Source: a virus. From it: DNA of 26,356 nt. The notes under the pieces were generated by a model. It saw only the letters and a program-made list of their open reading frames with translations. It was not told the origin of the DNA and did not search any database. Shown piece after piece: positions 2,390 through 24,491 of this stretch. Made by a program: the position numbers and the translations under genes. Within the stretch, counting starts at the first letter, position 1. The number at the start of each line of letters is the position of its first letter. Location of the stretch: positions 1-26,356 of the IMG/VR virus record IMGVR_UViG_3300030085_000034, one strand, 5' to 3'.

Positions 2390-2418
2390 TTGACAAATGA
2401 AACAGATAATGGTATAAC
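2390..2418 (+). promoter_or_regulatory. Promoter P1, sigma70-type (TTGACA-17-TATAAC)
   Basis: TTGACA at 2390-2395, a 17-base spacer and TATAAC at 2413-2418 with an extended -10 (TGG just before it). It shares TTGACAAA and GGTATAAYT with P2 and P3. The expected start, about seven bases after the -10, is near 2425, which is the A of the next gene's ATG. Confidence 0.75.
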
Positions 2419-2424
2419 TTATTC

Positions 2425-2676
2425 ATGGCATTAAAGCAACCACAAAAGAGTTTAAAGGCTTGGGGAAAGCAGAAGTGGAGAACGAAGAGTGGAAAGCCCT
2501 CCTCCGAAACGGGTGAGCGTTATCTTCCAACGGCTGCTATCAAGGCGTTATCGCCATCTGAATATGCCGCTACGACCCGTGCTAAAAGAAAAGGAACTCG
2601 TGCTGGTAAGCAATTCGTCAAGCAGCCTAAAAGTATATCAAAGAAAACCGCAAGGTTCAGACGAGGAGTAGGATAA
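2425..2676 (+). CDS. Small basic protein, DUF5872-like
   Basis: An 83-residue, very Lys/Arg-rich protein. The opening (MALKQPQKSLKAWGKQKWRT), SGKPSS-x-TGERYLP, EYAATTRAKRKGT, GKQFVKQPK and a basic tail match what I recall of the DUF5872 family, common in marine phages and giant-virus relatives. The strong positive charge suggests nucleic-acid binding or packaging, but its role is unknown. The ATG sits at the predicted transcription start of P1 and no Shine-Dalgarno sequence precedes it, so translation from P1 transcripts may be leaderless. It overlaps the holin by one base (TAATG). Confidence 0.75.
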   Translation: MALKQPQKSLKAWGKQKWRTKSGKPSSETGERYLPTAAIKALSPSEYAATTRAKRKGTRAGKQFVKQPKSISKKTARFRRGVG

Positions 2677-3059
2677 TGTGGACCGCCTTAGTAGGACCAA
2701 TAGCTGATTTAGCAGGGACATGGTTAAATGGAAAAGTTGAAAAGACTAAAGCAGAAGCTGCAACCAAGGTGGCAAAAGCTAAAGCTGAAGCTGTCATCAT
2801 GGAGAAAAAGGCTACAGGAGAAATTGACTGGGATTTGGAAATGGCTAAAGGAAGTCAGTCATCGTGGAAAGACGAGTGGCTTACAATTCTATTCAGCATC
2901 CCTCTCATTCTTGCGTTCATTCCGGGTATGGAAGAAGTAGTCAAAAACGGATTTGCACAATTGCAGTCTATGCCAGAATGGTATCAGTATAGTTTAGGTG
3001 TTATCGTAGCAGCCAGTTTTGGTGTTCGTAGTGCTACTAAATTTTTTGGTAAAAAATAG
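2676..3059 (+). CDS. Holin, GTA_holin_3TM-like
   Basis: A 127-residue protein. The N-terminus (about 1-17, MWTALVGPIADLAGTWL) is a short amphipathic/hydrophobic segment; residues 20-60 are charged; SWKDEWLTILFSIPLILAFIPG (about 63-84) is the signature membrane segment of the three-TM holin family known from gene transfer agents and alphaproteobacterial phages. A second hydrophobic segment covers about 104-118, with a basic end (KFFGKK). It would open the inner membrane to release the lysozyme encoded 265 bases downstream. That lysozyme has no signal peptide, so it needs a holin. Confidence 0.82.
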   Translation: MWTALVGPIADLAGTWLNGKVEKTKAEAATKVAKAKAEAVIMEKKATGEIDWDLEMAKGSQSSWKDEWLTILFSIPLILAFIPGMEEVVKNGFAQLQSMPEWYQYSLGVIVAASFGVRSATKFFGKK

Positions 3060-3119
3060 TTGTAATGATTATGTGGGATATGCACGACCATACAACAAAA
3101 GAACAGGCAAGGAAAAACC

Positions 3120-3395
3120 GTGACAGCAGTAATGGAAAGAGTTTTAGCGTGGAAAATATTACCACGTCTGATGATGTTAATGATGTCCGTGTCGGCATGG
3201 AGAGTGGTGGAGTGGTTTATGACATTGCCCGATCCAACAAGTCAACAAGCGGCACTGGTGAGTGTAGTCACGGGGGCCATGACAGGTGCATTTGCGGTAT
3301 GGATGAATCACGAGGGTAAAGGCGATGAAATACAACCCACAAGACCTAATAGACAAGCTGGTGGTAAGCGAGGGTCTAAGGCTACAGGTGTATAA
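3120..3395 (+). CDS. Small two-TM-like membrane protein in lysis region (GTG start)
   Basis: A 91-residue protein. GTG 3120 is preferred because AAGGA (3109-3113) lies six bases upstream; ATG 3132 has no such site. The first hydrophobic region (about 13-34, LPRLMMLMMSVSAWRVVEWF) and the second (about 44-62, ALVSVVTGAMTGAFAVWM) flank LPDPTSQQ, a combination I recall in marine phages near holins. The C-terminus is basic. Its last 71 bases overlap the lysozyme gene in another frame. It could be a second holin, antiholin or other lysis regulator; function is unproven. Confidence 0.7.
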   Translation: MTAVMERVLAWKILPRLMMLMMSVSAWRVVEWFMTLPDPTSQQAALVSVVTGAMTGAFAVWMNHEGKGDEIQPTRPNRQAGGKRGSKATGV

Positions 3396-3810
3396 GGACA
3401 CATTAGGAATTGATACAATTGGTATCGGACGAAACCTAGAAGACCGTGGAATTACCCAACAAGAGTTGGATGATTTAGATATACCATCTATTGACCACGT
3501 TTATGAATGGGGAATAACCGAAGCTGATGCGGTCTATCTAGCAGAGAATGACGTACAGATTGTCGAAGAAGAACTGGTCCGTGCGCACCCTTGCGTAGAT
3601 CAGCTAGACGCTGTACGTCAGCTTGTACTTGTAGATATGGCATTCAATATGGGTGTGCCAAGACTTAATAAGTTTAAAAAGATGTGGGCGGCTGTACATG
3701 ATGGAGATTATCCTACTGCAGCAAAGGAGATGCTCGACAGTAGATGGGCAACTCAGGTAAAAGGACGGGCAGTTAAATTGTCCAACGCTATGCACAACGG
3801 AGAATTTTAA
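3325..3810 (+). CDS. Endolysin, T4-type lysozyme (glycoside hydrolase 24)
   Basis: A 161-residue muramidase, close to T4 lysozyme (164 residues). The catalytic segment SEGLRLQVYKDTLGIDTIGIGRN carries Glu16, Asp25 and Thr31 in the same spacing as Glu11, Asp20 and Thr26 of T4 lysozyme. The C-terminal lobe (VLVDMAFNMG, FKKMWAAV, SRWATQVKGRA) is also typical of the family. There is no signal peptide or N-terminal anchor, so release depends on a holin. The ATG at 3325 follows GAGG (3312-3315). It cleaves the glycan strands of peptidoglycan at the end of infection. Confidence 0.93.
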   Translation: MKYNPQDLIDKLVVSEGLRLQVYKDTLGIDTIGIGRNLEDRGITQQELDDLDIPSIDHVYEWGITEADAVYLAENDVQIVEEELVRAHPCVDQLDAVRQLVLVDMAFNMGVPRLNKFKKMWAAVHDGDYPTAAKEMLDSRWATQVKGRAVKLSNAMHNGEF

Positions 3811-3972
3811 ATGGGTGGTAGAACATATAAATCAAGCTATCAAGGTCAAGGTGGTATTTATAAAGTCAGTAGTAAAACTTCAGGTCAAACTTATAAAGGT
3901 AAGAAAAAGAAAGAAACAAAGTTTCTTGACCCCTATAGAATAGTAGACCTTATTAAAAAGGCAATAGACTAA
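3811..3972 (+). CDS. 53-residue basic hypothetical protein
   Basis: ATG 3811 immediately follows the lysozyme stop (TAA ATG), and the stop at 3970-3972 directly abuts the ATG of the next gene, so the ORF exactly fills the gap. The product starts MGGRTYKSSYQGQGG, has a Gly/Tyr/Ser/Lys-rich first half, a lysine run (KGKKKKE) and a short helical end (DPYRIVDLIKKAID). The exact fit between neighbours argues that it is real. The family is not recognised; a DNA-binding or packaging-linked role is possible from charge and position only. Confidence 0.55.
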   Translation: MGGRTYKSSYQGQGGIYKVSSKTSGQTYKGKKKKETKFLDPYRIVDLIKKAID

Positions 3973-4344
3973 ATGACACGACAGCTAACAGACAAGCAAC
4001 AGAAACTACTCAACGTCCTCTTTGAAGAAGCTGGCGGTGATTTGGTACAAGCAAAAAAGCTGGCAGGATATGCTGACACTTCTAATACTACAGAGATTGT
4101 TAAAGGTCTTAAAGAAGAAATACTTGAGGCTACTCAAATGTACATGGCACGTAATGCTCCGAAAGCAGCGATGGCGATGACAGGTGCATTGCATGACCCG
4201 ACAGAGTTGGGTATTCGTGATAAGATGGTTGCGGCAAAAGAACTGCTTGACCGCACAGGTCTGATTAAAACAGAGAAGGTGCAGGTAGAAGCTGCAGGTG
4301 GTGTAATGCTTATGCCAGCTAAAGCACCAGTAGACGATGAGTAG
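3973..4344 (+). CDS. terS: Probable terminase small subunit
   Basis: A 123-residue protein just upstream of TerL. The N-terminal half looks like a helix-turn-helix (LTDKQQKLLNVLFEEAGGDL, AKKLAGYAD, EIVKGLKEEILEA). Then come MAMTGALHDP and RDKMVAAKELLDRTGL, a pattern seen in phage TerS oligomerisation regions, and a short acidic C-terminus (PVDDE). It would recognise phage DNA and load the large subunit. The next gene starts within its last 8 bases. The assignment rests on position plus the HTH and AKELLDRTG motifs, so a different DNA-binding protein cannot be excluded. Confidence 0.7.
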   Translation: MTRQLTDKQQKLLNVLFEEAGGDLVQAKKLAGYADTSNTTEIVKGLKEEILEATQMYMARNAPKAAMAMTGALHDPTELGIRDKMVAAKELLDRTGLIKTEKVQVEAAGGVMLMPAKAPVDDE

Positions 4345-4738
4345 AAGCATAGGCAAGTGGAAGCTACCACAGCCGACAGACATTAAAGAAGAAAACGAAT
4401 GGATACCCATACCACGTATTGCACGTACAGTACCATTCGGATATAAGCAGGATGATGAAGACCCCGATATTCTTCAGCCTATACCAATTGAATTGGATTT
4501 GCTAGAGAAAGCTAGGCAGCACGTAAATCAGTATAGCTACCGTGAGGTTGCAAATTGGTTGAGTACACAGACTGGCAGATATATCTCGCATGTAGGTTTG
4601 AGAAAACGGTTACAATATGAGCGAAGACGTAAGAACCAAGCTGCAAGCCTTATCAAGTGGGCAGAGTATGCGGAAAAGGCAATCGCCAAAGCGCAAGAAA
4701 TCCACACCCAAAGAACGGGTGCAAAAGCCGAAGGTTGA
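4337..4738 (+). CDS. Conserved HTH-like protein between TerS and TerL
   Basis: A 133-residue protein with recognisable blocks: VPFGY followed by an acidic stretch (DDEDPD), LQPIPIELDLLEKARQ, YSYREVANWLSTQTGRYISHVGLRKRL, and a basic/alanine-rich end. The YSYREVANWL...ISHVGLRKR stretch reads as a helix-turn-helix, and I recall this arrangement just before TerL in many marine phages. It may assist DNA recognition by the terminase. It overlaps TerS by 8 nt, and its last 122 nt are also the start of TerL in another frame, which constrains both proteins. Confidence 0.75.
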   Translation: MSRSIGKWKLPQPTDIKEENEWIPIPRIARTVPFGYKQDDEDPDILQPIPIELDLLEKARQHVNQYSYREVANWLSTQTGRYISHVGLRKRLQYERRRKNQAASLIKWAEYAEKAIAKAQEIHTQRTGAKAEG

Positions 4739-6180: not shown

Positions 6181-6369
6181 ATGGAAGTAATTTGGTCATT
6201 AATGTTAACAGTTTGTTCTACAGCATATTGTGGAACGCAGACCATACAGTGGTTTGATGAAAAGCCAGACTGTATTAAAATGAAAAACATACATGAAAAC
6301 ATACCAACTGACGGTGATTGGAAGTCTATAGAATATAGATGTACCGTGGTAGGAGCAAAGGAAGTATAA
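6181..6369 (+). CDS. Small paired-cysteine protein (family member 3)
   Basis: A 62-residue protein starting at ATG 6181 (an in-frame TTG lies 15 bases upstream, inside the terL end). It has a hydrophobic N-terminus (MEVIWSLMLTVCSTAYCG) with Cys12 and Cys17, then QWFDEKPDCIK with Cys31 and IEYRCTVV with Cys54. The FDEKPDC...YRC layout matches members 1 and 2 near 1502-1902, although this copy is 4 kb away between TerL and portal. Secretion is likely from the N-terminus; function is unknown. Its end (AKEV) contains the AAGGAAG used as ribosome-binding site for the portal gene, which it overlaps by one base. Confidence 0.62.
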   Translation: MEVIWSLMLTVCSTAYCGTQTIQWFDEKPDCIKMKNIHENIPTDGDWKSIEYRCTVVGAKEV

Positions 6370-8510
6370 TGGCAGAAGATGAAATTATGATTGAAGACGA
6401 TGCTATTGCTCTGGAAGATACAGACGATACTGCCGAAACAGATATGGATGTGACAAATATCATTCCGTTTATTATGGAAAGATATAAGCGTTCTGAAGAC
6501 TACCGATACCAAGATGAAGAGAGATGGTTACGTGCCTATCGTAACTATCGTGGTTTGTATGGTCCAGATGTACAGTTTACAGAAGCAGAAAAATCTCGTG
6601 TATTTGTTAAGATAACTAAAACTAAAACGCTGGCAGCATACGGACAGATTGTTGATGTTCTATTCGCTAACCAGCGTTTTCCTTTATCTATTGAGCCTAC
6701 TGAATTACCAGAGGGGGTTGTTGCTGATGTACATTTTGACCCTAAAGAACCAGAACAACTGCGTGGTGAAACTGCTCTTTCAAGTCCCTATGGTTTTCAG
6801 GGAGATGGAATGGATTTCCCAGCAGGTGCAACTGCCCAGAGTTTACAAGAAAAACTTGGGGCGTTGGAAGATAAACTGGAACCAGTCGCTGATAAATTAA
6901 AAGAAGGTCCGGGTAAAACACCTACAGCTATTGCATTTAGTCCTGCTCTTATTGCAGCAAAGAAGATGCAAAAGAAAATACATGACCAGCTAGAAGAGTC
7001 TGGTGCTACTAAGCATTTACGTAGTGCTGCATTTGAGATGGCACTCTTTGGTACAGGTGTAATGAAGGGGCCATTTGCTGTAGACAAAGAATATCCAAAC
7101 TGGGGTGATGATGGTAACTATGACCCATTGTTTAAAACTATCCCACAGGTAAATCATGTATCTGTTTGGAACTTTTATGCAGACCCAGATGCTAACAATA
7201 TGGATGAGGCACAGTTTGTTATTGAACGACATAAGATGTCTCGCACACAGTTGCGCAATCTAAAGAAGCGTCCCTACTTTAGAAGTGGTGTAATTGATGA
7301 AGTCATCCAGATGGGTGAGAATTATACCAAGAAGTATTGGGAAGAAGATTTAACAGACTATGCACCAGAACATGGTATTGACCGCTTTGAAGTATTAGAA
7401 TATTGGGGCATGGTAGATGTTGAACTACTTGAAGAGCAAGAAGTAGAAATACCAAAAGAACTAAAAGACTTTGATGAACTACAAGCAAATATCTGGATAT
7501 GTAATAATAAATTGTTACGTATGGTTCTTAACCCATTTAAACCTGCTAAGATACCATACTGTGCAGCACCATATGAATTAAACCCATACTCATTTTTTGG
7601 TATTGGTATTGCAGAAAATATGGACGATACGCAGACACTAATGAATGGCTTTATGCGTATGGCTGTAGACAACGCTGTGTTGTCAGGTAACTTGATTGTA
7701 GAAGTAGACGAAACCAATCTAGTGCCGGGTCAAGACTTATCTTTGTATCCCGGTAAAGTATTCCGTAGGCAAGGTGGCGCACCGGGTCAGGCAATCTTTG
7801 GTACAAAGTTTCCAAATGTAGCACAAGAAAACATGATGCTGTTTGACAAAGCACGTGTGTTGGCAGATGAAAGCACAGGCTTTCCTTCTTTTGCACATGG
7901 ACAAACAGGTGTATCGGGCGTAGGTAGAACTGCTAGTGGTATATCAATGCTTATGGGTGCTGCGCAAGGCGGCACAAAAACTGTTATTAAAAATGTAGAT
8001 GATTATTTGCTGCGTCCTTTAGGTGAAGGTCTATTTCGTTTTAATATGCAGTTTGATTTTGACCCTGCCATAAAGGGTGATTTAGAAGTTAAGGCACGTG
8101 GAACTGAAAGTCTTATGGCTAACGAGGTACGTAGTCAAAGACTTATGCAGTTCTTACAAATCGCAAGTAACCCTGCACTTGCTCCATTTGCTAAGTTCCA
8201 ATATGTAATCCGTGAGATTGCAAAATCTATGGACTTAGACCCAGACAAAGTTACCAACAATATGGATGAAGCTGCTCTGCAAGCAGAGATTATGAAAGAG
8301 TTTCAAGCACCCCTACAAAATCAACAGGGCGGTATGACACCCCCACCGGGTGGTGATGCTATGGACCCAACAGGTGCAGGTGGTGGCAACGTAGGTACAG
8401 GGCAAGTTCCAGTGCCGGGTGAACAAGGATTTAGTGCAAGTGAACAAGGAAATACTCAGCAAACTCAAGCCGCTGGTCAACAACAAGCACCAGTGGGACC
8501 ACTTCAGTAA
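6369..8510 (+). CDS. Portal protein
   Basis: A 713-residue protein from ATG 6369, with AAGGAAG about five bases upstream. It directly follows terL and precedes scaffold and capsid genes. The N-terminus is acidic, then a helical region (IMERYKRSEDYRYQDEERW). The central part includes YGQIVDVLF, HLRSAAFEMALFGTGVMKGP, WNFYADPDA, PYELNPYSFFGIGIAENM and DESTGFPSFAHGQTG...GRTASGISMLMG, a pattern of podoviral portals. The last 60 or so residues are Gly/Pro/Gln-rich and probably disordered. Its size is nearer P22 gp1 (about 725) than T7 gp8 (about 535). It forms the dodecameric DNA channel at the capsid vertex. Confidence 0.88.
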   Translation: MAEDEIMIEDDAIALEDTDDTAETDMDVTNIIPFIMERYKRSEDYRYQDEERWLRAYRNYRGLYGPDVQFTEAEKSRVFVKITKTKTLAAYGQIVDVLFANQRFPLSIEPTELPEGVVADVHFDPKEPEQLRGETALSSPYGFQGDGMDFPAGATAQSLQEKLGALEDKLEPVADKLKEGPGKTPTAIAFSPALIAAKKMQKKIHDQLEESGATKHLRSAAFEMALFGTGVMKGPFAVDKEYPNWGDDGNYDPLFKTIPQVNHVSVWNFYADPDANNMDEAQFVIERHKMSRTQLRNLKKRPYFRSGVIDEVIQMGENYTKKYWEEDLTDYAPEHGIDRFEVLEYWGMVDVELLEEQEVEIPKELKDFDELQANIWICNNKLLRMVLNPFKPAKIPYCAAPYELNPYSFFGIGIAENMDDTQTLMNGFMRMAVDNAVLSGNLIVEVDETNLVPGQDLSLYPGKVFRRQGGAPGQAIFGTKFPNVAQENMMLFDKARVLADESTGFPSFAHGQTGVSGVGRTASGISMLMGAAQGGTKTVIKNVDDYLLRPLGEGLFRFNMQFDFDPAIKGDLEVKARGTESLMANEVRSQRLMQFLQIASNPALAPFAKFQYVIREIAKSMDLDPDKVTNNMDEAALQAEIMKEFQAPLQNQQGGMTPPPGGDAMDPTGAGGGNVGTGQVPVPGEQGFSASEQGNTQQTQAAGQQQAPVGPLQ

Positions 8511-8646
8511 TTACTTAGACCTGCTTATAGAACAACAACACCGCACATTAGAACAGGGTGATAATACAATACTGATGCACCGTGCGCAGGGAGCGATAGC
8601 GGTATTGCGTAATATTAAAACATTAAGGGATGCTATCAATGGCTAA
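8419..8646 (+). CDS. Small helical protein overlapping the portal 3' end
   Basis: A 75-residue protein from GTG 8419; GTG 8434 and 8443 are alternative starts. The first 92 bases lie inside the portal gene in another frame, over the low-complexity Gln/Pro tail. The second half (FSNYLDLLIEQQHRTLEQGDN, MHRAQGAIAVLRNIKTLRD) is a well-formed amphipathic helical sequence. I recall similar small proteins after portal genes in marine podoviruses and cyanophages. The part after 8510 has no other coding explanation, which supports the ORF. Function is unknown; a head-assembly cofactor is possible. The next gene begins inside its last bases. Confidence 0.7.
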   Translation: MNKDLVQVNKEILSKLKPLVNNKHQWDHFSNYLDLLIEQQHRTLEQGDNTILMHRAQGAIAVLRNIKTLRDAING

Positions 8647-10744
8647 CATGGCAAAACAAATGGAACTCTTTGATGAGGGTGGTCTTATGCAAGAAGGTGG
8701 TACAGTTGATCCTGTATCTGGCAATGATGTACCTATAGGTTCTACCCAAGAAGAAGTCCGTGATGACATACCTGCACAATTAAGTGAGGGTGAGTTTGTT
8801 ATGCCAGCAGACGTAGTGCGCTATCATGGATTAGATAAAATGATGGCACTTCGTGACGAAGCTAAACGAGGTCTTGCACGTATGGATGCTATGGGTCAAA
8901 TGGGTAATAGTGAAGAAGCTACTATTCCAGATGGTGTTCCGTTTAGCATAGATGATCTTGAAATGGAAGATGACGGGCAAGATGATTTAAATTTTAATTT
9001 AGGTGGAGTGGTTCCTATGCCGGGTACTGGTGTTATTACTACACCTAATCCTGCTCCGACTACAGGATTTAAACCTTATGTACCACCTGTAATTCCCAGC
9101 TTTACTGGGCCACAACTTCAAGGCACACAATTTACAACGGCAACTCAATCAACTAACTTGCCTACCTTTGGTCAAGTAGTTGGTACTAATCCCGGACAGT
9201 ATGACGAATTAAGACGATATGTAAATGATGCAGGAATTGTAAGACGAATACCTTTTAAAAATGGACAACCTATTTATCCCATCCCTGAAGGTTTTAGATT
9301 TGAACCAGAAGATACTACACAAGTAACAGACCCTACTACTACGCCTACTACCACTATAGGACAGCAAGATGACGGTGGTGGGGACGGAGATAGTTTAGGT
9401 ATAGGCACAACAGGTGTAGGCACTTCAACAGTTACAGGTGCTAGTGATATGGAAACTGCTATGATGGATGCATCTCGTGGTATGTTTGGTAAAAGAGATT
9501 CTTCCGCTGGTTTTTATGGTGGTAGTCGTGAGTTTGGTTTAACTAATCCTGAAATGAGAAGTGCTACATTTGATATGGCAATGGCACAATTGGGTTCACT
9601 TAGTCCTATGACTGCTGCTGGTATAACAATAGGTAATCAACTTGGTATATTAGATAATATGGCTACTCCTAATCAAGCTGCTATTGCGGGTCAGACTGCA
9701 AAGGGTATGGCTTTAGCTGCGATGGGGTTTTCTAATCCGGGTCAAATCGCTACTAATGAACAAGCAACCGCTTATGGTCTTGCTATAACTGCTGCTATGG
9801 AAGCAGCCAAAAAAGGACAAGATGTTCGTTCTGCAGTAGATGAAGTAATGGCACAAAATCAAACTGCTGTTAATCAAGGAATACTTAGTGCTATGACTGA
9901 TCTAGGATATAGTCGTGCGGACGTAACTAATGTAGAGGCGTTGCGTTCTGCGGCAAGAGGATATAATAATTTAGCAGATTCATATGCTCAAGATGCAAAA
10001 GATGCAATAGCAAGTGGTACAGTTAGAGATACATCTGGTAAAGCAGTTACATCTACAGACCCCACTACGGGAAAAACTCAAGCCGTTACAACTGAAAGAG
10101 CAAGACAGCAAGCTAACGCTGCTAAAGCTAAAGAACAACAAGCAAGAAATAGAGCAAGAACATTAGGTAATGAGGCATCTCAACAGGATGGTGGCGCACC
10201 TCCGGGTGCTACCCCGTCTTCTCCTGCAGATTATGGTGCAATGTCACCTGAAGATGTTGCAGCAATGTTTGATGATACTTCAGAAGGTCAAGGCGATAAT
10301 CAAGGTGGCGGTATGGATGGTAGTGAAGGATTTGGGTCTGGTGATGATGCAGCAGCACCTATCTGTCTAACTGAAGACATGAAAGTAAAACGCAATGGTG
10401 TTATAGACTTTGTAACTAAAGTACAAGTAGGTGACATTGTAGATAATACAGTGGTGACAGAAGTATTACACAAGCATATGCGTGAGGGTTATTACAAAGT
10501 CAACGGTGAGTTAAAGATCACTAATGACCACCCTGTACTTGCTAATGGTTCGTGGAAACGTACAGAAGACTTAGTGCTAGGTGACTACATTAATAATGTA
10601 GAAGTAACATCACTTGAATATGTAGAACAAGTAACACCGACAGTTTACATTGGTACAGCAGATGATCGCTATAATGTATACACAGAAGGTGAAGTCTACA
10701 CAGTGCATGGACAATATAAAAATGCACTGAAGAAAGCTGCGTAA
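8639..10744 (+). CDS. Large virion-associated protein with C-terminal Hint (hedgehog/intein) domain
   Basis: A 701-residue protein. ATG 8639 is preferred because AAGG (8625-8628) is ten bases upstream; ATG 8630 is too close to it. Residues 1-125 contain VSGNDVPIG, DDIPAQLSEGEFVMPADVVRY and MGNSEEA, blocks I recall in structural proteins of marine phages. A Pro/Thr-rich linker and an Ala/Gln-rich helical region (about 280-540) follow. Residues 576-701 look like a Hint domain: Cys576 in ICLTEDMKVKRNG, GDIV, T628-N-D-H631-P-V-L (the TxxH block) and RYNVYTEGEVYTVHG. The usual C-terminal Asn plus nucleophile is missing. The protein probably self-cleaves or forms a thioester at Cys576, releasing the structural part. 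It lies between portal and scaffold. Confidence 0.82.
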   Translation: MANMAKQMELFDEGGLMQEGGTVDPVSGNDVPIGSTQEEVRDDIPAQLSEGEFVMPADVVRYHGLDKMMALRDEAKRGLARMDAMGQMGNSEEATIPDGVPFSIDDLEMEDDGQDDLNFNLGGVVPMPGTGVITTPNPAPTTGFKPYVPPVIPSFTGPQLQGTQFTTATQSTNLPTFGQVVGTNPGQYDELRRYVNDAGIVRRIPFKNGQPIYPIPEGFRFEPEDTTQVTDPTTTPTTTIGQQDDGGGDGDSLGIGTTGVGTSTVTGASDMETAMMDASRGMFGKRDSSAGFYGGSREFGLTNPEMRSATFDMAMAQLGSLSPMTAAGITIGNQLGILDNMATPNQAAIAGQTAKGMALAAMGFSNPGQIATNEQATAYGLAITAAMEAAKKGQDVRSAVDEVMAQNQTAVNQGILSAMTDLGYSRADVTNVEALRSAARGYNNLADSYAQDAKDAIASGTVRDTSGKAVTSTDPTTGKTQAVTTERARQQANAAKAKEQQARNRARTLGNEASQQDGGAPPGATPSSPADYGAMSPEDVAAMFDDTSEGQGDNQGGGMDGSEGFGSGDDAAAPICLTEDMKVKRNGVIDFVTKVQVGDIVDNTVVTEVLHKHMREGYYKVNGELKITNDHPVLANGSWKRTEDLVLGDYINNVEVTSLEYVEQVTPTVYIGTADDRYNVYTEGEVYTVHGQYKNALKKAA

Positions 10745-10827: not shown

Positions 10828-11703
10828 ATGGCTGAAGAAGCTACTGTTATGGCTGAAGAAGTAAAGCCTGAAAAGAAAGTTGCATTTGCAAATCGTAAAT
10901 ACACAAATGAAGAAAAGCGTAAAAAGGAAGAAGAAGAACTAGAACAGATGATGAAGGAACAGCGTGGTGAGACAGAAGAAACTGTAGAGCCAGAAGAAGC
11001 TGAACCTACTAACGCAGAAGAAAAAACATTTAAGAAGCGTTACTCTGATCTACGTAGGCATCAACAAAAGCAAGCAGAAGATTTTAAGAAAGAGATAGAT
11101 GCTCTTAAAAGTCAACTAAATGATGCTACAAAAAAAGAAATGAAACTGCCTAAGTCAGATGAAGACATTGAAACATGGGCAGCGGAATACCCAGATGTAG
11201 CGGCTATAGTTGAAACAATTGCAATGAAGAAAGCACGGGAACAATCAGTTGCACTAGAAGAACGTGTAAAAGCAATTGACGAAATGCAGTTATCTGCTAC
11301 CAAAGAAAAAGCTGAAGTAGAACTAATGCGTATGCATCCTGACTTTGGTGAGATACGTGACAGCGATGAGTTTCACGATTGGGCAGAAGAGCAACCTAAG
11401 TGGGTACAAGACGCACTATACGATAATGACAATGACGCACGTGCAGCAGCTAGAGCCATTGACTTATACAAAGCCGATAAGGGAATAGGTCAAGAAAAAC
11501 CTAAGTCAAATAAAGATGCAGCAAAGTCTGTGTCTACAAAGAACTCACGTAGTACACCACAGAAAGATGAAGCTAGTTCATACTTAAAAGAGTCAGATGT
11601 TCAGAAGATGTCGGCACAAGAGTATGAGAAAAACTCAGATGAAATCATGGAAGCAATCCGTAGTGGCAAGTTTGTCTATGATGTAAGTGGGTCTGCACGA
11701 TGA
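10828..11703 (+). CDS. Probable scaffolding protein
   Basis: A 291-residue, very hydrophilic protein. ATG 10828 follows AAGGAG (10815-10820) by seven bases, a strong site. The N-terminal half is Glu/Lys-rich and predicted coiled coil (KRKKEEEELEQMMKEQRGE, KKRYSDLRRHQQKQAEDFKK). The middle has WAAEYPDVAAIVETIAMKKA and MRMHPDFGEIRDS, and the C-terminal part is polar with a short helix (EYEKNSDEIMEAIRSGKF). Charge, helicity and the position before the capsid gene fit a scaffold that guides prohead assembly and then leaves. It overlaps the next gene by 4 nt (ATGA). There is no enzymatic motif. Confidence 0.78.
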   Translation: MAEEATVMAEEVKPEKKVAFANRKYTNEEKRKKEEEELEQMMKEQRGETEETVEPEEAEPTNAEEKTFKKRYSDLRRHQQKQAEDFKKEIDALKSQLNDATKKEMKLPKSDEDIETWAAEYPDVAAIVETIAMKKAREQSVALEERVKAIDEMQLSATKEKAEVELMRMHPDFGEIRDSDEFHDWAEEQPKWVQDALYDNDNDARAAARAIDLYKADKGIGQEKPKSNKDAAKSVSTKNSRSTPQKDEASSYLKESDVQKMSAQEYEKNSDEIMEAIRSGKFVYDVSGSAR

Positions 11704-12368
11704 GTATAATATTTAAGCCACAAAAAGAAATGGAACTATTTGCTCCGTTTGGGCCAACGATGGGATACTACCGTATGCCAGATGAGTTGGTAGAGAAGCT
11801 AAATAGTAAAATGTCTGACAAGTTAAAAGACTATTCAGATAACTTGGTAGGCAAAGTAAAAGCAGAGTTAGCTTTTGATGAAGAGATTGTAGCTATTGCC
11901 CAAGAAGGTTTAGGGCAGTTTGTAGGTAAATATCAAGCCTACACAGAACTACGAAACTCTTTTGGGGCTAACTCCCTAGATGTAGATAACTACAACTATG
12001 GATTACAGGTAGTATCAGGTTGGTTTGTACGACAGTTTAATGGTGAGTACAACCCACTACACATCCACACAGGGTCAAGATTATCTTGTGTAGGATACCT
12101 AAAACTACCTGAAGGAATAGAAGAAGAGTGGGAAGAAGATTACAAAGATCACCATCCTGCTAATGGGCATATACAGTTTGCATCAGGTACACCATCAGGA
12201 TATACCTGCACAAACTTTGTAATTAAGCCACAGGTTGGAGACTTCTACGTATTTCCTTCACAACTATTTCACTGTGTATATCCATTCTATACAGAAGGAG
12301 AACGCAGGTCTTTCAGTATGAACATGAATTTTCTTGAAATACCGAAAGAAAAAAAGGTTGACAAATAG
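11700..12368 (+). CDS. 2-oxoglutarate/Fe(II)-dependent oxygenase (2OG-FeII_Oxy_5-like)
   Basis: A 222-residue protein. The C-terminal half shows the double-stranded beta-helix signature: WFVRQFNGEYNPLH121-I-H123 followed by SRLSCVGYLKLP, then FVIKPQVGDFYVFPSQLFH191, and GERRSFSMN with Arg202/Arg203 as the likely 2-oxoglutarate anchor. The residues 1-90 are a helical extension. The enzyme would hydroxylate a substrate using O2 and 2-oxoglutarate with succinate and CO2 as products. It is coupled to the scaffold gene by ATGA, and promoter P2 overlaps its stop, so it belongs to the head-assembly operon. A virion protein substrate is possible but not shown. The start motif is HxH, as I recall for this subfamily, rather than HxD. 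Confidence 0.82.
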   Translation: MSIIFKPQKEMELFAPFGPTMGYYRMPDELVEKLNSKMSDKLKDYSDNLVGKVKAELAFDEEIVAIAQEGLGQFVGKYQAYTELRNSFGANSLDVDNYNYGLQVVSGWFVRQFNGEYNPLHIHTGSRLSCVGYLKLPEGIEEEWEEDYKDHHPANGHIQFASGTPSGYTCTNFVIKPQVGDFYVFPSQLFHCVYPFYTEGERRSFSMNMNFLEIPKEKKVDK

Positions 12369-18720: not shown

Positions 18721-19170
18721 ATGGCAGACGATGCCTCAGTAACCGTACAGGCAACGGTATTGCCTGATGAAATCGCCAAGACTATTTCTGGCAGTGTAAC
18801 AATTTCACCAGCAGACGCTAACGATAAGTGGTACTATAAACTTACTAGCGTATCAAACTCTAGCACAGACTTGATTGCTGGTTATTATACAGACTATACT
18901 GCTGTAGATGATGATACTGCACCAACGGCTGTTGCTACTGGTGATAAAGTAAACTTCTTGTTTATTAAAAACACAGACTCAAGCAACGATGTGTATATTG
19001 TTCTTGATGCAGGAACTGCGTCAACAAGTGCTGGTGATGCAATTAAGATTGCAGCAGGTCACTCTTGGTTTGGCAACCTTCCTAATACAACTGTTGCAGA
19101 CATCCATGCAATATCCTCTACAAGCACAGTAACTTGCATTGTAGCAGCATTGTTAGATGATGTAGCATAA
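18721..19170 (+). CDS. Beta-rich virion-type protein, first gene of adhesin array
   Basis: A 149-residue protein with a strong start (GGAG six bases before the ATG) and its own consensus promoter. It is rich in Asp, Ala, Ser and Thr with alternating hydrophobic positions (VTVQATVLPDEIAKTISGSV, KWYYKLTSVS, KVNFLFIKNTDSSNDVYIVLD, IAAGHSWFGNLPN), a beta-sandwich pattern. No cysteine pair or catalytic motif stands out. As the promoter-proximal gene it should be the most expressed of the array, suggesting a structural role, possibly a fibre-base or capsid-surface protein. I do not recognise a named family. Confidence 0.65.
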   Translation: MADDASVTVQATVLPDEIAKTISGSVTISPADANDKWYYKLTSVSNSSTDLIAGYYTDYTAVDDDTAPTAVATGDKVNFLFIKNTDSSNDVYIVLDAGTASTSAGDAIKIAAGHSWFGNLPNTTVADIHAISSTSTVTCIVAALLDDVA

Positions 19171-19180
19171 GGAGTAGGTC

Positions 19181-19510
19181 ATGGCTAATACCTTTAAAGT
19201 AAAAACTTTTGATGGTTCAAGCACAGCAGCAAACGGTCTAATGAATATTTATACCGTGCCATCATCTACAACTACTGTGGTTATTGGCCTGACCATTGCT
19301 AATACCACATCAAGTCAAATCACAGTAGACATAAAGCTAAGTGCTGCATCTACTGTGTTCTTGGCTAAAGACATACCAATACCTGCTGGTTCATCTTTTG
19401 AGTACATGGCAGGAAATAAAATAATCATGGAAGCTACGCATACTCTTAGTGTGGCTTCCGATACTGCAAATAGCGCAGACACAGCATTGAGTATTATGGA
19501 GATAACCTAA
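19181..19510 (+). CDS. Small beta-rich structural protein
   Basis: A 109-residue protein; GGAG (19171-19174) precedes the ATG by six bases. The sequence is a regular alternation of beta strands (IYTVPSSTTTVVIGLTIANT, ITVDIKLSAASTVFLAKDIPIP, GNKIIMEATHTLSVAS). Similar short proteins occur in tail regions of marine phages, but no function is established. Its last codons (IMEIT) contain GGAG 19498-19501, the ribosome-binding site of the next gene, which it overlaps by one base. Confidence 0.65.
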   Translation: MANTFKVKTFDGSSTAANGLMNIYTVPSSTTTVVIGLTIANTTSSQITVDIKLSAASTVFLAKDIPIPAGSSFEYMAGNKIIMEATHTLSVASDTANSADTALSIMEIT

Positions 19511-19959
19511 TGCCATTTCTTGGTAATCCTGTATCTAGTAATTTTCAAACACGTCCTGCTACACAAGAGTTTAATGGAGATGGCTCAACAACCATCTTCA
19601 CTCTTAATCAAACTGTAGCACAAGAAGATATTATAGTATCCGTTGATGGTGTTGTACAGGAAAGTGTAGATGCTTTTACTGTGCCTAATGGTACAAATCT
19701 TACCTTTACTGCTGCCCCTTCTAGCGGCACTGGTAATATCTTTGTTATGTACATGGGTACATCTGCTGGCTCAATCACACCTGCTGCAGAAAACAAAGGT
19801 AACTTCAAGGCTGGTGGTTTGTTTCGTACCAACGCACAATCCCTTACAGCAGATACAACCATCCTAGCTACAGAGAATGCCAACGTAACTGGTCCGTTTA
19901 CCGTGGCTTCTGGTGTTACATTAACCGTTGAAAGCGGTGGGACATTGGTGACGCTATGA
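19510..19959 (+). CDS. Fibre adaptor-like protein
   Basis: A 149-residue protein starting MPFLGNPVSSNF, followed by FNGDGSTTIFTLNQTV, IIVSVDGVVQ and FTAAPSSGTGNIFVMYMG. This N-terminal block is the type found at the start of phage tail-fibre proteins that attach a fibre to the tail. A second, diverged gene of the same kind lies at 23267-23728 (MPYIGKSP, MDVYQNGVLLKPGTDY). The C-terminal part is short and beta-rich (NVTGPFTVASGVTLTVESGG). It probably links an adhesin to the tail. It overlaps the next gene by 4 nt; this is the one overlap in the array without a clear GGAG. Confidence 0.65.
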   Translation: MPFLGNPVSSNFQTRPATQEFNGDGSTTIFTLNQTVAQEDIIVSVDGVVQESVDAFTVPNGTNLTFTAAPSSGTGNIFVMYMGTSAGSITPAAENKGNFKAGGLFRTNAQSLTADTTILATENANVTGPFTVASGVTLTVESGGTLVTL

Positions 19960-20351
19960 GTACATTAAAAGCAGATACCATACAAAGCACAGGCGGTGGT
20001 GCGGCTACGCTGACTAAACAAGAGGCTGCAAAGGCAAGAGGACAACATGCCGCTGGAACACTTCAATCAGGTTCACTTAATCATAGTTCTATAACTGATC
20101 ACGGCACTGGGTCATTTTCGCATAATTTTACAAGCAGTTTTGCAAATATACTTTACAGTCATGTGGGTTCAGCGACTTACAATGCGGGTTCTTCTTCTGC
20201 TCTTTGGACATATATGCGAGAAGATGGTTCGGCTGGGGATACAGCGACAGGAAGCATAAAAGTTACCAGTGCTTATATTTTGTCTAGTCAAAACAGAACT
20301 GACTATGACTTTGCGTTTGTAGACTTAATTTGTTTTGGAGACCTAGCATGA
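19956..20351 (+). CDS. GDLA-family fibre-tip-like protein A
   Basis: A 131-residue member of a five-gene paralogous family (others at 21231, 23725, 24090, 24491). It has the N-terminal motif STLKADTIQ, then TKQEAAKARGQH, the core GSLNHSSITDHGTGSFSHNF and the C-terminus CFGDLA. The core resembles a domain normally found at the end of larger phage fibres (S-F/L-N-x-SS-x-x-D-x-x-TG). Here it is a free-standing protein, so it may be an exchangeable receptor-contacting tip. GGA of GDLA starts GGAG 20337-20340, the ribosome-binding site of the next gene. It overlaps that gene by 4 nt. Confidence 0.68.
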   Translation: MSTLKADTIQSTGGGAATLTKQEAAKARGQHAAGTLQSGSLNHSSITDHGTGSFSHNFTSSFANILYSHVGSATYNAGSSSALWTYMREDGSAGDTATGSIKVTSAYILSSQNRTDYDFAFVDLICFGDLA

Positions 20352-20908
20352 GTTTAATTAAAACAGACGCAATACAAACTCTTGCTGGCAAACCTATTTT
20401 GAATAGCACTGGTTCTGTGCTGCAAGTAAAGTCAACTGTTGACTCAGATGTCCAATCAATAGCAGGTTTGACTTTTGCAGATGTAATATCTGTTTCAATC
20501 ACACCAACAAGTTCATCATCAACAATACTTGTTATGTGTAACCTTAATATTTCCGCTGCAACGTCTGATGCTAGTCAAACGGCTGCTAGATATACTGGTG
20601 TAAAACTTTATCGTGACAGCACACAAATTGCTGTTAATTCAGACGCTTCTGGCAATCAAGCTAAAGTTTGGTTTTCATGTAATTCTACTGAAGGAAATAA
20701 CTCAGGCTTTCAACAAAACAATGCTAGTGGTTCGTTTATGGATTCTCCATCTACAACATCAGCAATAACATATAAAATAACTGCTGGAAATACTTACGAC
20801 AGTAATTATTACACTTACATTAATCGTCCTAGTTATGGGTCTACTGACAATTATGGCTATAATCATAAGGGCGTGTCTACGCTTACGGTTATGGAGATTT
20901 CAGCATGA
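20348..20908 (+). CDS. Fibre protein 1 (paired with tail chaperone 1)
   Basis: A 186-residue protein from ATG 20348. The N-terminus (MSLIKTDAIQTLAGKPILN) resembles the LKADTIQ start of the tip family. The body contains LTFADVISVSITPTSSSSTILVM, LYRDSTQIA and MDSPSTTSAITYKI, and the end is VMEISA. The gene at 22468 carries the same three blocks (SFADLTGMTLTITP, LLRDSTAIS, DQPSTTSAVVYKF) and a VILEIKP end, so the two are paralogs. Probably an adhesin or fibre subunit. It overlaps the chaperone-like gene by 4 nt, and GGAG 20893-20896 in its last codons is that gene's ribosome-binding site. Confidence 0.66.
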   Translation: MSLIKTDAIQTLAGKPILNSTGSVLQVKSTVDSDVQSIAGLTFADVISVSITPTSSSSTILVMCNLNISAATSDASQTAARYTGVKLYRDSTQIAVNSDASGNQAKVWFSCNSTEGNNSGFQQNNASGSFMDSPSTTSAITYKITAGNTYDSNYYTYINRPSYGSTDNYGYNHKGVSTLTVMEISA

Positions 20909-21231
20909 GGCATGAAGCTATTTATTCTCTATACTCTTCTGCCGTTACTATACATGGTGATGGCGACAATGCTGTAGCGACAGATAAAGATGGCAAGGTA
21001 GTGTCTTGGGATGCTTCTGCGGTAGCAAACAAAGAAGCTGAACTTATTGCTGCATTTAAGCTAACGGAATTACGTACGGAACGTAACAGGCGTATTGCTG
21101 AAACCGACTGGTGGGATATGTCAGACACAACCGCCATGACAGATGCACAGAAAACTTATCGTCAAGACCTACGAGACATTACTAAGTCTGCAACATCTTT
21201 AGATGACGTAAGCTGGCCGGAGAAACCATAA
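20905..21231 (+). CDS. Tail fibre assembly chaperone-like protein 1
   Basis: A 108-residue protein. The C-terminal half (LRTERNRRIAETDWWDMSDT, YRQDLRDITKSATSLDDVSWPEKP) is the pattern of phage tail-assembly chaperone proteins (PF16778-like), which help fibres fold. The N-terminal half (MRHEAIYSLYSSAVTIHGDG, DKDGKVVSWD) is shared with the second copy at 22932. It is translationally coupled to fibre protein 1 and ends with WPEKP, whose codons hold GGAG for the next gene. It may be specific for the fibre encoded just upstream; the repeated pairing supports this. Confidence 0.78.
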   Translation: MRHEAIYSLYSSAVTIHGDGDNAVATDKDGKVVSWDASAVANKEAELIAAFKLTELRTERNRRIAETDWWDMSDTTAMTDAQKTYRQDLRDITKSATSLDDVSWPEKP

Positions 21232-21602
21232 TGGCACTAGGAAAGATAAAAGCAGATACGCTAGAACACAGCACCGCTGGTACGGTTGATACGCAGTATG
21301 TTGTTGACGGTAGTGTTAAAGCGTATGCCAATCAAGATAATGGAACATCTTTGAATAAAAGTCTTAACATCTCATCATTAACTGACAATTCAACAGGGCG
21401 TTATGAGTTGGCAATAACAAATGCTTTTACCGATGCTAATTTTGGTCAAATGGTCTGTGCGGGTAGCAGTACAGGAAATTGCTCCATAGACACCAGTCAT
21501 AACACTGCTGCAATAATGGCATCTCGTATATATAGAACTGACACAAGTGCTTACCTTGATTCAGGGGATTGTAATTATTACGGTGTAGGAGACCTCGCAT
21601 AA
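21231..21602 (+). CDS. GDLA-family fibre-tip-like protein B
   Basis: A 123-residue paralog of the family. The N-terminus is LGKIKADTLEH, the core KSLNISSLTDNSTGRYELAITNAF, and the end GVGDLA. It contains three cysteines (in the MVCAGSS, GNCSID and SGDCNYY stretches), so this copy may be disulfide-bonded or metal-binding, unlike copy A. It begins on the stop of chaperone 1 (TAATG) and its GDLA codons provide GGAG 21588-21591 for the next gene. It is inferred to be a small trimeric tip or adhesin. Confidence 0.68.
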   Translation: MALGKIKADTLEHSTAGTVDTQYVVDGSVKAYANQDNGTSLNKSLNISSLTDNSTGRYELAITNAFTDANFGQMVCAGSSTGNCSIDTSHNTAAIMASRIYRTDTSAYLDSGDCNYYGVGDLA

Positions 21603-22075
21603 TGGAAACACCAGAGTTTCAAGGCACACACCTATTTGACAGACTATGCTGGGCTAAAGAAAACCTAGACGCTGTACAATCTGACTATCGTGTAGTGTAC
21701 GAAGACAGTATTGACGAATGTGCAAAGATACTTGTGCCTGATCCAAACTGGATGGCTTGTGCGCTACAAGGCGGCATCTTACCACCAGTGCAGGTATATT
21801 GGGAATTAGCCAAAGATGAGGCAAAGCCTGACTTTGTAAAACATACCAGAGGACACTTGCTCCATAACACAAAGCCTGTAGAGGCTATGACAGAAGAGCA
21901 AGCAATAGAATACCTAATTATGAAAGATTGCCCACAGCATGTGTGGCGCAATTGGAATGAGGGCAACAAACCAAAGATGGTTATATGCCGTAAAGAACAG
22001 TTACCAAGCACACGTGAGTGGCGCAATGCTTGGAAGATAACTGAGGAACTTAGCGTCACTGAATTAGCCGCATAG
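21602..22075 (+). CDS. Conserved hypothetical protein of marine phages (157 aa)
   Basis: This gene differs in style from its beta-rich neighbours: it is Trp-, Cys- and charge-rich (FDRLCWAKENLDAVQSDYR, DPNWMACALQGGILPPVQVYWELAKDEAKP, FVKHTRGHLLHNTKPVEAM, EEQAIEYLIMKDCPQHVW). I recall the LPPVQVYWELAKDEAKP segment in many uncultured marine phages, always unnamed. It reads as a soluble alpha/beta protein, perhaps an enzyme or assembly factor rather than a fibre. There is no catalytic motif I can name. It lies between tip B and a chaperone-like protein, so a role in fibre maturation is possible. Confidence 0.66.
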   Translation: METPEFQGTHLFDRLCWAKENLDAVQSDYRVVYEDSIDECAKILVPDPNWMACALQGGILPPVQVYWELAKDEAKPDFVKHTRGHLLHNTKPVEAMTEEQAIEYLIMKDCPQHVWRNWNEGNKPKMVICRKEQLPSTREWRNAWKITEELSVTELAA

Positions 22076-22085
22076 GAGAAAACTA

Positions 22086-22457
22086 ATGGCAACAACATAT
22101 ATCGTAGACAAGGACGGGAATCAGATTGATGCTGCATCAGCCACCGTTCCTTCTGACCGTCACTTCCGTGGTGCATGGTCATTGGATGGCACAGTCATCT
22201 CTGAAGACATGACAAAGGCCAAAGAAATCTTCAAGGATAAAATTCGTGAAGTACGTGCGCCACTGCTTGAGGCAGAAGACGTAGTGTATATGAAAGCACT
22301 AGAGGCTGACGATGCGGATGCAAAGACTGCTTCTGTAAATAAGAAGAAAGCACTGCGTGATGCACCTGCTGCTTCTGCAATTACTAGCGCAGACACAATT
22401 GCTAAACTCAAGGCAGCTTGGGATACATCTGTGTTGGGTGACAGCCCTTACGCATAA
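22086..22457 (+). CDS. Tail chaperone-like protein (123 aa)
   Basis: GGAG (22075-22078) precedes the ATG by seven bases. The sequence (YIVDKDGNQID, RHFRGAWSLDGTVISEDMTKAKEIF, IREVRAPLLEAEDVVYMKALEAD, KKALRDAP, LKAAWDTSVLGD) matches a group of small phage proteins near tail fibres. The pattern KDKIREVRAPLLEAEDV...KKALRDAP parallels the RNRLLAETD...YRQALRDI pattern of tail-assembly chaperones, so it is probably a related assembly protein with a different N-terminus. The family is recognised by overall pattern only. Confidence 0.66.
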   Translation: MATTYIVDKDGNQIDAASATVPSDRHFRGAWSLDGTVISEDMTKAKEIFKDKIREVRAPLLEAEDVVYMKALEADDADAKTASVNKKKALRDAPAASAITSADTIAKLKAAWDTSVLGDSPYA

Positions 22458-22467
22458 GGATAAGTAA

Positions 22468-22935
22468 ATGGCTCTGACAAAAATTCGTGATTCTGCAATG
22501 CCATCAGGTAGTGTTATTCAGTGTCTCCACACTAGCACAACAAGCACTGTTGCTAATACTACTACATCCTTTGCAGACCTGACTGGCATGACATTAACGA
22601 TAACCCCAGCAGCTACAGACTCGCTTATATTTATACTTGCATCTATTGCTTTTGCGGCAAACAGAACTGGGAACACAGATATTCATGCAACCACACAATT
22701 ATTACGAGACTCAACCGCTATCTCTGGTAAAGACTTGCGAACTTACGATTACGGGTCGGGAGGTATTTTTAACGCTTCATCATTAAGTTACTCGTTTGTT
22801 GACCAGCCATCAACTACATCAGCGGTAGTTTATAAATTTCAAGCAAAAAAGACTTCTTCAGACGCAGCACAAAGCACAATGAATCCTGAATCGGGTAATC
22901 GCTCTGAAATGGTGATATTGGAGATAAAGCCATGA
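22468..22935 (+). CDS. Fibre protein 2 (paired with tail chaperone 2)
   Basis: A 155-residue protein from ATG 22468 (AAGGA seven bases upstream). It is a paralog of fibre protein 1: FADLTGMTLTITPAATDSLIFIL, LLRDSTAISG, FVDQPSTTSAVVYKFQAKK and VILEIKP align with blocks of that protein, though the N-terminus (MALTKIRDSAMPSGSVIQ) and central region differ. GGAG 22920-22923 in the last codons serves the chaperone-like gene, which it overlaps by 4 nt. It is probably a second adhesin or fibre subunit with another specificity. Confidence 0.66.
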   Translation: MALTKIRDSAMPSGSVIQCLHTSTTSTVANTTTSFADLTGMTLTITPAATDSLIFILASIAFAANRTGNTDIHATTQLLRDSTAISGKDLRTYDYGSGGIFNASSLSYSFVDQPSTTSAVVYKFQAKKTSSDAAQSTMNPESGNRSEMVILEIKP

Positions 22936-23267
22936 CGATGATAAAAACTCAAGCAATCCAATCATTATATTCAGATGCGGCTTTTATTACGGTAGATGGT
23001 GAAAATATAGTTGTTATGGACATCAACGGCAAGTCAGTATCTGTAAATAAGGATGATGTTGCAGCAAAGGAAGCCGAATTAAAAACAGCTAATGAGCTAG
23101 AAGAATTACGCAGAGTTCGTAATAAACTTTTATCTGAAACAGACCATTGGGTTTTGCCTGACACGGCTGATGTTACATCTGCACAAACAAAATATCGCCA
23201 AGACTTACGTGATATAACTAAATCTGCCACATCACTAGACGATGTTACTTGGCCGGAGAAACCATAA
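22932..23267 (+). CDS. Tail fibre assembly chaperone-like protein 2
   Basis: A 111-residue paralog of the protein at 20905. Shared blocks are the opening with IQSLYSDAAFITVDGEN, the central ELKTANELEELRRVRNKLLSETDHW, and YRQDLRDITKSATSLDDVTWPEKP. The last 20 or so residues are nearly identical to copy 1, while the N-terminal part differs more, consistent with adaptation to its own fibre. The nucleotide end of both copies (GGCCGGAGAAACCATAATG) is identical and contains the GGAG used by the following gene. It is translationally coupled to fibre protein 2. Confidence 0.78.
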   Translation: MTMIKTQAIQSLYSDAAFITVDGENIVVMDINGKSVSVNKDDVAAKEAELKTANELEELRRVRNKLLSETDHWVLPDTADVTSAQTKYRQDLRDITKSATSLDDVTWPEKP

Positions 23268-23728
23268 TGCCATACATAGGTAAATCCCCAGAGTTCGGTG
23301 TTCGCAATCGTTTTGTATATCAAGCGACTGCTAGTCAAACATCCTTTAGTGGCTCTGATGCAGACAGTAAAACACTGACATATACAGATAGCCTGTACAT
23401 GGACGTGTATCAGAACGGTGTGCTACTCAAGCCCGGTACAGATTATACAGCAACGACAGGTACAACAGTCGTGTTGGTCACAGGAGCAAGCCTCAATGAC
23501 GTAGTTGAGATGGTAGTGTATGACGCTTTCTCTGTAGCAGATAGCTACACAAAGTCACAAGCAGATACACGCTACCCATTCAAGGGTAACAACAGCATCA
23601 TCCGATTGAATGGTCAGACCATCAGCGCAGACATTACAATTGACAGCGATGAGAATGGCGTATCGGCTGGGCCTATTACACAGGACAATGCCACCGTCAC
23701 TGTTAACGGATATTGGAGTATCGTATGA
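23267..23728 (+). CDS. Fibre adaptor-like protein 2
   Basis: A 153-residue protein from ATG 23267, which overlaps the chaperone stop. The start MPYIGKSPEFGVRNRFVYQATASQ, SLYMDVYQNGVLLKPGTDY, LNDVVEMVVYDAFSVADSYTKSQADTRYPFKG is a very common attachment module at the N-terminus of fibres in marine phages and cyanophages. In those it precedes a long fibre; here the protein stops after a short beta region (ITQDNATVTVNGYWSIV). It may be a remnant of a larger fibre or a free-standing adaptor that joins the separately encoded tip proteins C, D and E. GGAG 23715-23718 serves the next gene. Confidence 0.7.
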   Translation: MPYIGKSPEFGVRNRFVYQATASQTSFSGSDADSKTLTYTDSLYMDVYQNGVLLKPGTDYTATTGTTVVLVTGASLNDVVEMVVYDAFSVADSYTKSQADTRYPFKGNNSIIRLNGQTISADITIDSDENGVSAGPITQDNATVTVNGYWSIV

Positions 23729-24090
23729 CCAGTGTACTAAATGTAGATACTATTGCAGATAAGGCTGGCACTGGTCCTGTTGGGTTGACTAAGCAAACAA
23801 CAGCAAAGGCATTTTGTCATTTTTCTACAAGCACAACACAAAGTTCTTTTAATGTTTCGTCAACAGTAGATGCTGGAACTGGTCAATATAAAAGCACTTA
23901 CACAAACAGCATGAGTGATGCAGAACAGTGTGTAACTACAAATGCTTTCAGAGATAGTGACCAATACATTGGAAATAGAAGTAGTGATAATGCGGCCTCT
24001 TATCATCAAGTTAATTGTTTTACTAGAGGTGGCACAACAAGAGCAGATACGGACACTGCTATGAGTGTAGTTCACGGAGACCTTGCATAA
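23725..24090 (+). CDS. GDLA-family fibre-tip-like protein C
   Basis: A 121-residue paralog from ATG 23725 (4-nt overlap). The N-terminus SVLNVDTIADKAGTGPVGLTKQ resembles the anchoring sequence of many marine tail fibres. The core SSFNVSSTVDAGTGQYKSTYTNSM is the family core, and the end is VVHGDLA. It has three cysteines (AFCHFS, EQCVT, VNCFT). GGAG 24076-24079 within the GDLA codons lies ten bases before the next ATG. This copy is the first of three adjacent tip genes (C, D, E). Confidence 0.68.
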   Translation: MTSVLNVDTIADKAGTGPVGLTKQTTAKAFCHFSTSTTQSSFNVSSTVDAGTGQYKSTYTNSMSDAEQCVTTNAFRDSDQYIGNRSSDNAASYHQVNCFTRGGTTRADTDTAMSVVHGDLA

Positions 24091-24491
24091 TGGCTAGTAT
24101 TCTTAAAGTAGATACCCTGACAGGTGTAACCACCGCTGGCTCTATTAGCGTTACTGGCGAGGGCAACTCAACCACGACTAATCTTCAGCAGGGGTTGGCG
24201 AAGGTATGGTGTTCTGTTGATGTCACAACAGTAGATGATTCATTAAATATTTCTAGTTTAACTGACACTGCGACTGGAAAAGCAACAATGAATCATACCA
24301 ATAATATGTCAAGTGAGCATTATGGATTAACTATGGGTTGTGCTATTCAAAGCCAAGTTCCCATATGTTACCCGCAAGACAATTCATTTATTACAACATC
24401 AGCACACAGAATAGTTACTATAATTAGTGCGGGTGGTTCATTAGCTGATGCTGAGTATCTTGGTAGTCAGGTGACAGGAGACCTCGCATAA
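24090..24491 (+). CDS. GDLA-family fibre-tip-like protein D
   Basis: A 133-residue paralog. The N-terminus SILKVDTLTGVTTAG leads to a short beta insert, then LAKVWCSVDV, the core DSLNISSLTDTATGKATMNHTNNM and the end VTGDLA. Three cysteines are present (VWCSV, MGCAIQ, PICYP). It starts on the stop of tip C (TAATGG) and its last codons include GGAG 24477-24480 for tip E. Core and ends are conserved while the region between core and C-terminus is quite different from tip C and E, as expected if that region contacts variable receptors. Confidence 0.68.
   Translation: MASILKVDTLTGVTTAGSISVTGEGNSTTTNLQQGLAKVWCSVDVTTVDDSLNISSLTDTATGKATMNHTNNMSSEHYGLTMGCAIQSQVPICYPQDNSFITTSAHRIVTIISAGGSLADAEYLGSQVTGDLA

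Follow-up and report, generated by a model that had tools for sequence, protein, structure and literature searches.

Genomic setting

The window analysed here comprises 26,356 nucleotides (positions 1 to 26,356 of IMG/VR record IMGVR_UViG_3300030085_000034) and belongs to a 56,251-base virus contig, whose best matches are HMO-2011 and the Roseobacter CRP phages. The gene order of the record (terminase-portal-carrier ORF-scaffold-like-coat) matches that of the same phages, and the source of the window is, by these sequence matches, a marine HMO-2011-type podophage. The gene of interest is a carrier ORF of 701 amino acids and unassigned function (8639 to 10744, plus strand, as are all its features given below; a second in-frame ATG lies at 8630), flanked by the portal gene (6339-8510) and the scaffold-like gene (about 10831-11703). 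Its orthologs are defined by a conserved N-terminal segment ('DPVSGN..VRDDIPAQLSEGEFVMPADVVR..', 8708 to 8947). We treat the carrier as a putative virion or structural protein only from its gene position, and the literature searched yielded no virion proteome for the HMO-2011 group.

Two further observations concern the surrounding genes. A 2OG-Fe(II) oxygenase (PF13759, E = 3e-18) lies at 11700-12368, between the scaffold-like and coat genes, and this stretch is absent from the relative L105, in which positions 5165/5167 correspond to window positions 11696/12347. Further downstream (18721-24892), short tail-fibre-like ORFs stand in a row, and four or more groups of divergent paralogs can be recognized among them, e.g., 20905-21231 and 22932-23267, which are 58% identical, or 19956-20351 together with 21231-21602, 23713-24090 and 24491-24892.

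A C-terminal Hint domain and its structural affinities

The carrier ends in a domain that, together with a short C-terminal tail, spans 126 residues (C576-A701; 10364 to 10741), as supported by an AlphaFold2 model and Foldseek, and is present once in the record. It begins C576-L-T-E-D-M-K-V, with Cys576, the sole cysteine of the carrier, as the block A nucleophile (10364 to 10366). Block B is the TxxH element T628-N-D-H631 (10520 to 10531), placed by alignment with the NrdJ-1 intein and 8r2c, and is followed by a block F-like Y-N-V (10670 to 10678), in which the window copy has Asn at the usual Asp position. At the block G position, V689-H690-G691 (10703 to 10711) replaces H-N, the terminal Asn being missing; only 10 residues follow before the stop at 10744, leaving neither a His-Asn nor a next Ser/Thr/Cys nor a C-extein. 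These last residues include the tail KNALKKAA (10718 to 10741), an eight-residue, predicted helical element of near-constant length among core copies. Directly before Cys576 lies a flexible linker of 40 residues rich in Gly, Ser, Asp and Asn (10244 to 10363); the median fraction of these residues in the linker is 0.575 across 71 Hint copies.

From the single sequence, the Hint identity of this domain is weak, and it becomes strong once relatives are included. Searches with the window domain alone returned nothing above threshold in PHROGs, NCBIfam (including CFI-box-CTERM, NF041770, cut-off 40 bits) or PDB, and no match among plasmids; Pfam Vint (PF14623) reached E = 0.012 and 15.8 bits, under its 27-bit cut-off, a phage collection gave one marginal, sub-threshold match, and the single match in a genome collection was a phage-like contig within a MAG. 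An alignment of 32 diverse rows drawn from the relatives described below (A3) yields an AlphaFold2 model with pLDDT 92.9 and pTM 0.85; the model from close relatives alone reached pLDDT 62 and was not used. In a Foldseek search of PDB, with E values of 3e-5 to 7e-4 and TMq of 0.66-0.74, the A3 model matches Tetrahymena BIL2, class 3 DnaB inteins, a C. thermocellum BIL and gp41-1, and this resemblance to intein and BIL structures (TM about 0.72-0.74) makes the Hint fold well supported. The A3 profile also finds the Vint-like chain 8r2c (E = 0.0012), pairing T-N-D-H with its block B T-P-K-H, and the NrdJ-1 intein (E = 0.03), pairing it with T-P-D-H. The C-terminal Hint domain proposed by the sequence-only reading is thus borne out as a predicted fold, with Cys576 and T628-x-x-H631 exactly as that reading described them.

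Several known systems stand close to the domain. With the hedgehog Hog domain it shares a C-terminal Hint fold, an initial Cys, the TxxH motif and the expectation that the chemistry halts after the N-S acyl shift, the initial half of splicing, whereas Hog carries a sterol-recognition region after its Hint where the phage domain has an eight-residue tail, and the context here is that of the phage cytoplasm or virion. Of the two families with which the same reading had suggested alignment, the BILs (2lwy, 6y75) are the best structural matches, lack the +1 nucleophile as the phage domain does, and are likewise expected to cleave rather than splice, while no Hog sequence match was obtained. The mutation N143A in BIL2 (6y75/6tmm) implies a terminal Asn there, unlike the Gly/Ala at the phage position, after whose module nothing follows. 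Vint (PF14623; 8r2c), known from eukaryotic VWA-Vwaint proteins (PMC2362128), is the nearest sequence profile and likewise conserves motifs A and B with weak or absent C-terminal motifs, although the window copy falls under its Pfam cut-off. Inteins (class 1 gp41-1 and NrdJ-1; class 3 DnaB) share the fold and the positions of blocks A, B and F; in contrast to them, the phage domain has no C-extein and no terminal Asn and cannot splice, and it possesses the C1 that class 3 inteins lack.

Conservation and selection

Searches of IMG/VR recovered 28 close loci and, with a profile, 70 in total; the distinct copies number 52. Every copy sits at a protein C-terminus and none has the terminal Asn, so that splicing is not expected; the earlier expectation for the window copy, which had noted the missing final block and the roughly ten residues after VHG, therefore extends to all copies. 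Block B reads T or S plus NDH in 52/52, block F has Asp in 42/52, Asn in 5/52 (the window included) and neither in 5/52, and the block G position is mostly His-Gly, with His replaced by Tyr, Ser, Asp or Lys in 6/52; the search pattern behind these counts demanded C1 and NDHP, which makes them no independent test of either. Among 53 distinct occurrences of K/R-I-T/S-N-D-H-P, C1 is absent only from L154 and two copies cut by contig ends, and L175 keeps C1 at a longer spacing. The L154 copy (3845-4366) has a frameshift, real or a sequencing error, just upstream of the Hint, and its frame lacks Cys1. C1 and T/S-x-x-H are held across copies down to about 30% identity. The residue at -1 to the Cys is variable (in the 52 copies, I occurs in 17, D in 15, L and A in 6 each, W in 4, V and K in 2 each), and 8-20 residues follow the Hint in core copies. 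Across 26 podophage copies, the median pairwise dN/dS is 0.10 and the Cys1 codons are TGT in 19 and TGC in 7; the domain is under purifying selection.

Carriers and alternative C-terminal modules

The Hint is borne by more than one kind of protein. Besides 31 distinct copies on the HMO-2011-type protein, it occurs on proteins of 1,350-1,400 residues, of which L036 and L163 match DUF4815 (E = 3e-50 and 6e-48) and 13 other long carriers were assigned to the same group by sequence pattern, length and similarity. Other carriers include the subtilase protein L171, the collagen-like tail fibre L174 and further ones. The L171 carrier (2414-4363) is a phage protease of the subtilase family, and its C-terminal Hint belongs to the same group. 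The distant Hint relative in L174 scores above the Pfam Vint cut-off (29.8 bits), and Intein_splicing is matched below its cut-off in L163. In a tree, three DUF4815-borne Hints are nested among those of podophages with a support of 89/82, which is under the 95/80 standard. The linker end 'EEGGFDW' before the Cys is common to podophage L028 and the DUF4815 carriers L036 and L132, which favours transfer of the Hint together with its linker. These patterns suggest that the Hint is an exchangeable C-terminal module among marine phage proteins. Annotations of phage tail proteins already mention Hint domains (e.g., 'putative phage tail protein, contains intein domain'), and no study of the role of C-terminal Hint domains in such proteins was found in the literature searched.

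The carrier body also occurs with other ends. The N-terminal segment retrieved 80 ortholog loci, 69 of which are complete at the C-terminus. A Lys-rich tail of the GGLASKK type closes 38 of these, a non-Hint Cys-first module (CTE/CTA 8, CFI-like 3, CCTAS 3, CYVATA 2) closes 16, and 15 have neither; the counts are not frequencies, as most Hint carriers were retrieved through the Hint searches. The Lys-rich tail ('KKMKRGGLASKK') is conserved and stands behind a low-complexity linker in many orthologs (L043-L122). The Cys-first modules follow the same kind of Gly/Ser/Asp-rich linker as the Hint. The bodies of the 69 complete homologs contain 0 cysteines in 39,358 residues, where the cysteine rate in the other proteins of the window would predict about 180; the figure is descriptive, the rows being related and of low complexity, and body cysteines do occur in some other carriers. 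A natural Hint-less allele is provided by L105, which is 91.6% identical to the Hint-bearing L038 as far as the linker. Beyond it, L105 has a short stretch of differing sequence followed by a stop, and the two align again over the final nine bases of the Hint ORF. A carrier body ending at the linker thus appears to be a tolerated gene product.

Of the Cys-first modules, CFI-box-CTERM (NF041770) is recognized in the ctYwJ313 ortholog at 52.1 bits, above the 40-bit NCBIfam cut-off, and the CFI-like modules of CRP-type proteins are sub-threshold for the same model. Like ctYwJ313, further cultured relatives have such modules: HTVC033P gp76 has a terminal CTA module beginning at C448, and Cys-first ends are also found in CRP-345 (gp62), CRP-13, CRP-1 (gp49) and HMO-2011. 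The CFI-like module is present at 62 IMG/VR loci, including the DUF4815 protein L194 (E = 1e-44). Since the Hint and the CFI-like module are each seen on HMO-2011-type and DUF4815 proteins, they share the same two unrelated carriers. CFI-box-CTERM and the related modules resemble the phage Hint in their C-terminal place, preceding Gly/Ser-rich linker and initial Cys, and differ in having no detectable relationship to it (hhalign, run for CTA: 0.3%). What emerges is one Hint module on two unrelated marine phage protein families, swapped for other Cys-first modules, and this exchange offers a testable handle on CFI-box-CTERM, for which no paper was found in the literature searched.

Predicted chemistry and rival explanations

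From the computed fold, conserved first-step residues, absent splicing end, purifying selection and modularity, we infer the chemistry at Cys576, its outcome and any virion role. Hint domains with first-step residues and no +1 nucleophile cleave or transfer and do not splice, as in hedgehog and BIL proteins (PMC7664689), and we consider it probable, though far from assured, that this domain autoprocesses at Cys576 by way of a thioester, with release or possibly transfer of the 575-residue body. The Hint would be active at one end only, in the style of the hedgehog C-terminal domain: once folded, Cys576 would attack the preceding peptide bond in an N-S acyl shift that Thr628 and His631 assist, and the body would become linked to the Hint through a thioester. 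No splicing step would ensue, the Asn, the +1 nucleophile and the C-extein all being missing, and an external agent, in the simplest case water, would resolve the thioester and free the body with the flexible linker as its new C-terminus; alternatively, a specific amine, thiol or hydroxyl might capture it, leading to covalent attachment. Autoprocessing is favoured by the Asp at -1 in 15/52 copies, a residue reported (PMC10663303) to promote N-terminal cleavage in inteins, by the L105 allele that finishes inside the linker, and by a dN/dS of about 0.10 with synonymous Cys codons. The case is weakened by the Asn at block F of the window copy, where Asp is counted among the first-step residues (PMC10663303), and by the variable His of V-H-G. 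The residue preceding the Cys is not conserved and thus gives no sign of a specific junction, and Hint-less alleles, if working, leave the Hint without evident need.

The main true rival to autoprocessing is a non-catalytic cap, in which the Hint fold would be a C-terminal interaction or chaperone-like domain that breaks no bond, its Cys serving in a disulfide or another role. The exchange of the Hint for folds of no known catalysis, the Asn at block F and the variable block G His would all suit such a cap, and we give it a distinct minority chance; the retention of C1 and T/S-x-x-H to about 30% identity is, however, the pattern expected of catalysis, and the window protein has no second Cys.

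Specific transfer, a sub-case of autoprocessing in which a defined nucleophile takes the thioester and the phage protein becomes covalently attached, is unlikely overall. In hedgehog, the thioester is captured by cholesterol; here the proposed targets are a lysine of another virion protein, a glycan, a lipid or a host-surface group. First-step residues retained beside a lost splicing end are consistent with transfer, and the alternative ends, both Cys-first modules and Lys-rich GGLASKK tails, could all tether a C-terminus. Yet the 8-20 residues after the core copies leave no extra domain comparable to the sterol-recognition region, the Asp at -1, present in over a quarter of the copies, speaks for simple cleavage, and no partner was found. 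Given processing, we put capture by a specific nucleophile at about one in three, and plain hydrolysis at least as likely as covalent attachment.

A degenerate intein relic, its C-extein gone and itself being lost, would explain the missing terminal Asn and +1 residue, but this very improbable reading is rejected on the purifying selection (dN/dS about 0.10) and the identical ending in 52 distinct copies on unrelated carriers, and the downstream genes are intact. An assembly artefact or chance resemblance, which the lack of any single-sequence database model at cut-off might suggest, is rejected as having practically no chance, given about 70 independent contigs carrying the Hint, its confident model and the Foldseek matches.

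Were autoprocessing true, phage assembly would include a step of self-maturation or covalent attachment for which no separate protease is required. The exchange pattern also hints at a shared job for the Hint and the other Cys-first modules. That these unrelated modules (Hint, CFI-box-like, CTA/CTE and others) should all cleave or attach the upstream body by an N-S acyl shift is a speculative and rather doubtful extension; if it held, the CFI-box would stand beside Hint as a second class of autoprocessing domain. Between the CFI-like and CTA modules themselves, hhalign gives a probability of 72%, which is suggestive only of a relationship.
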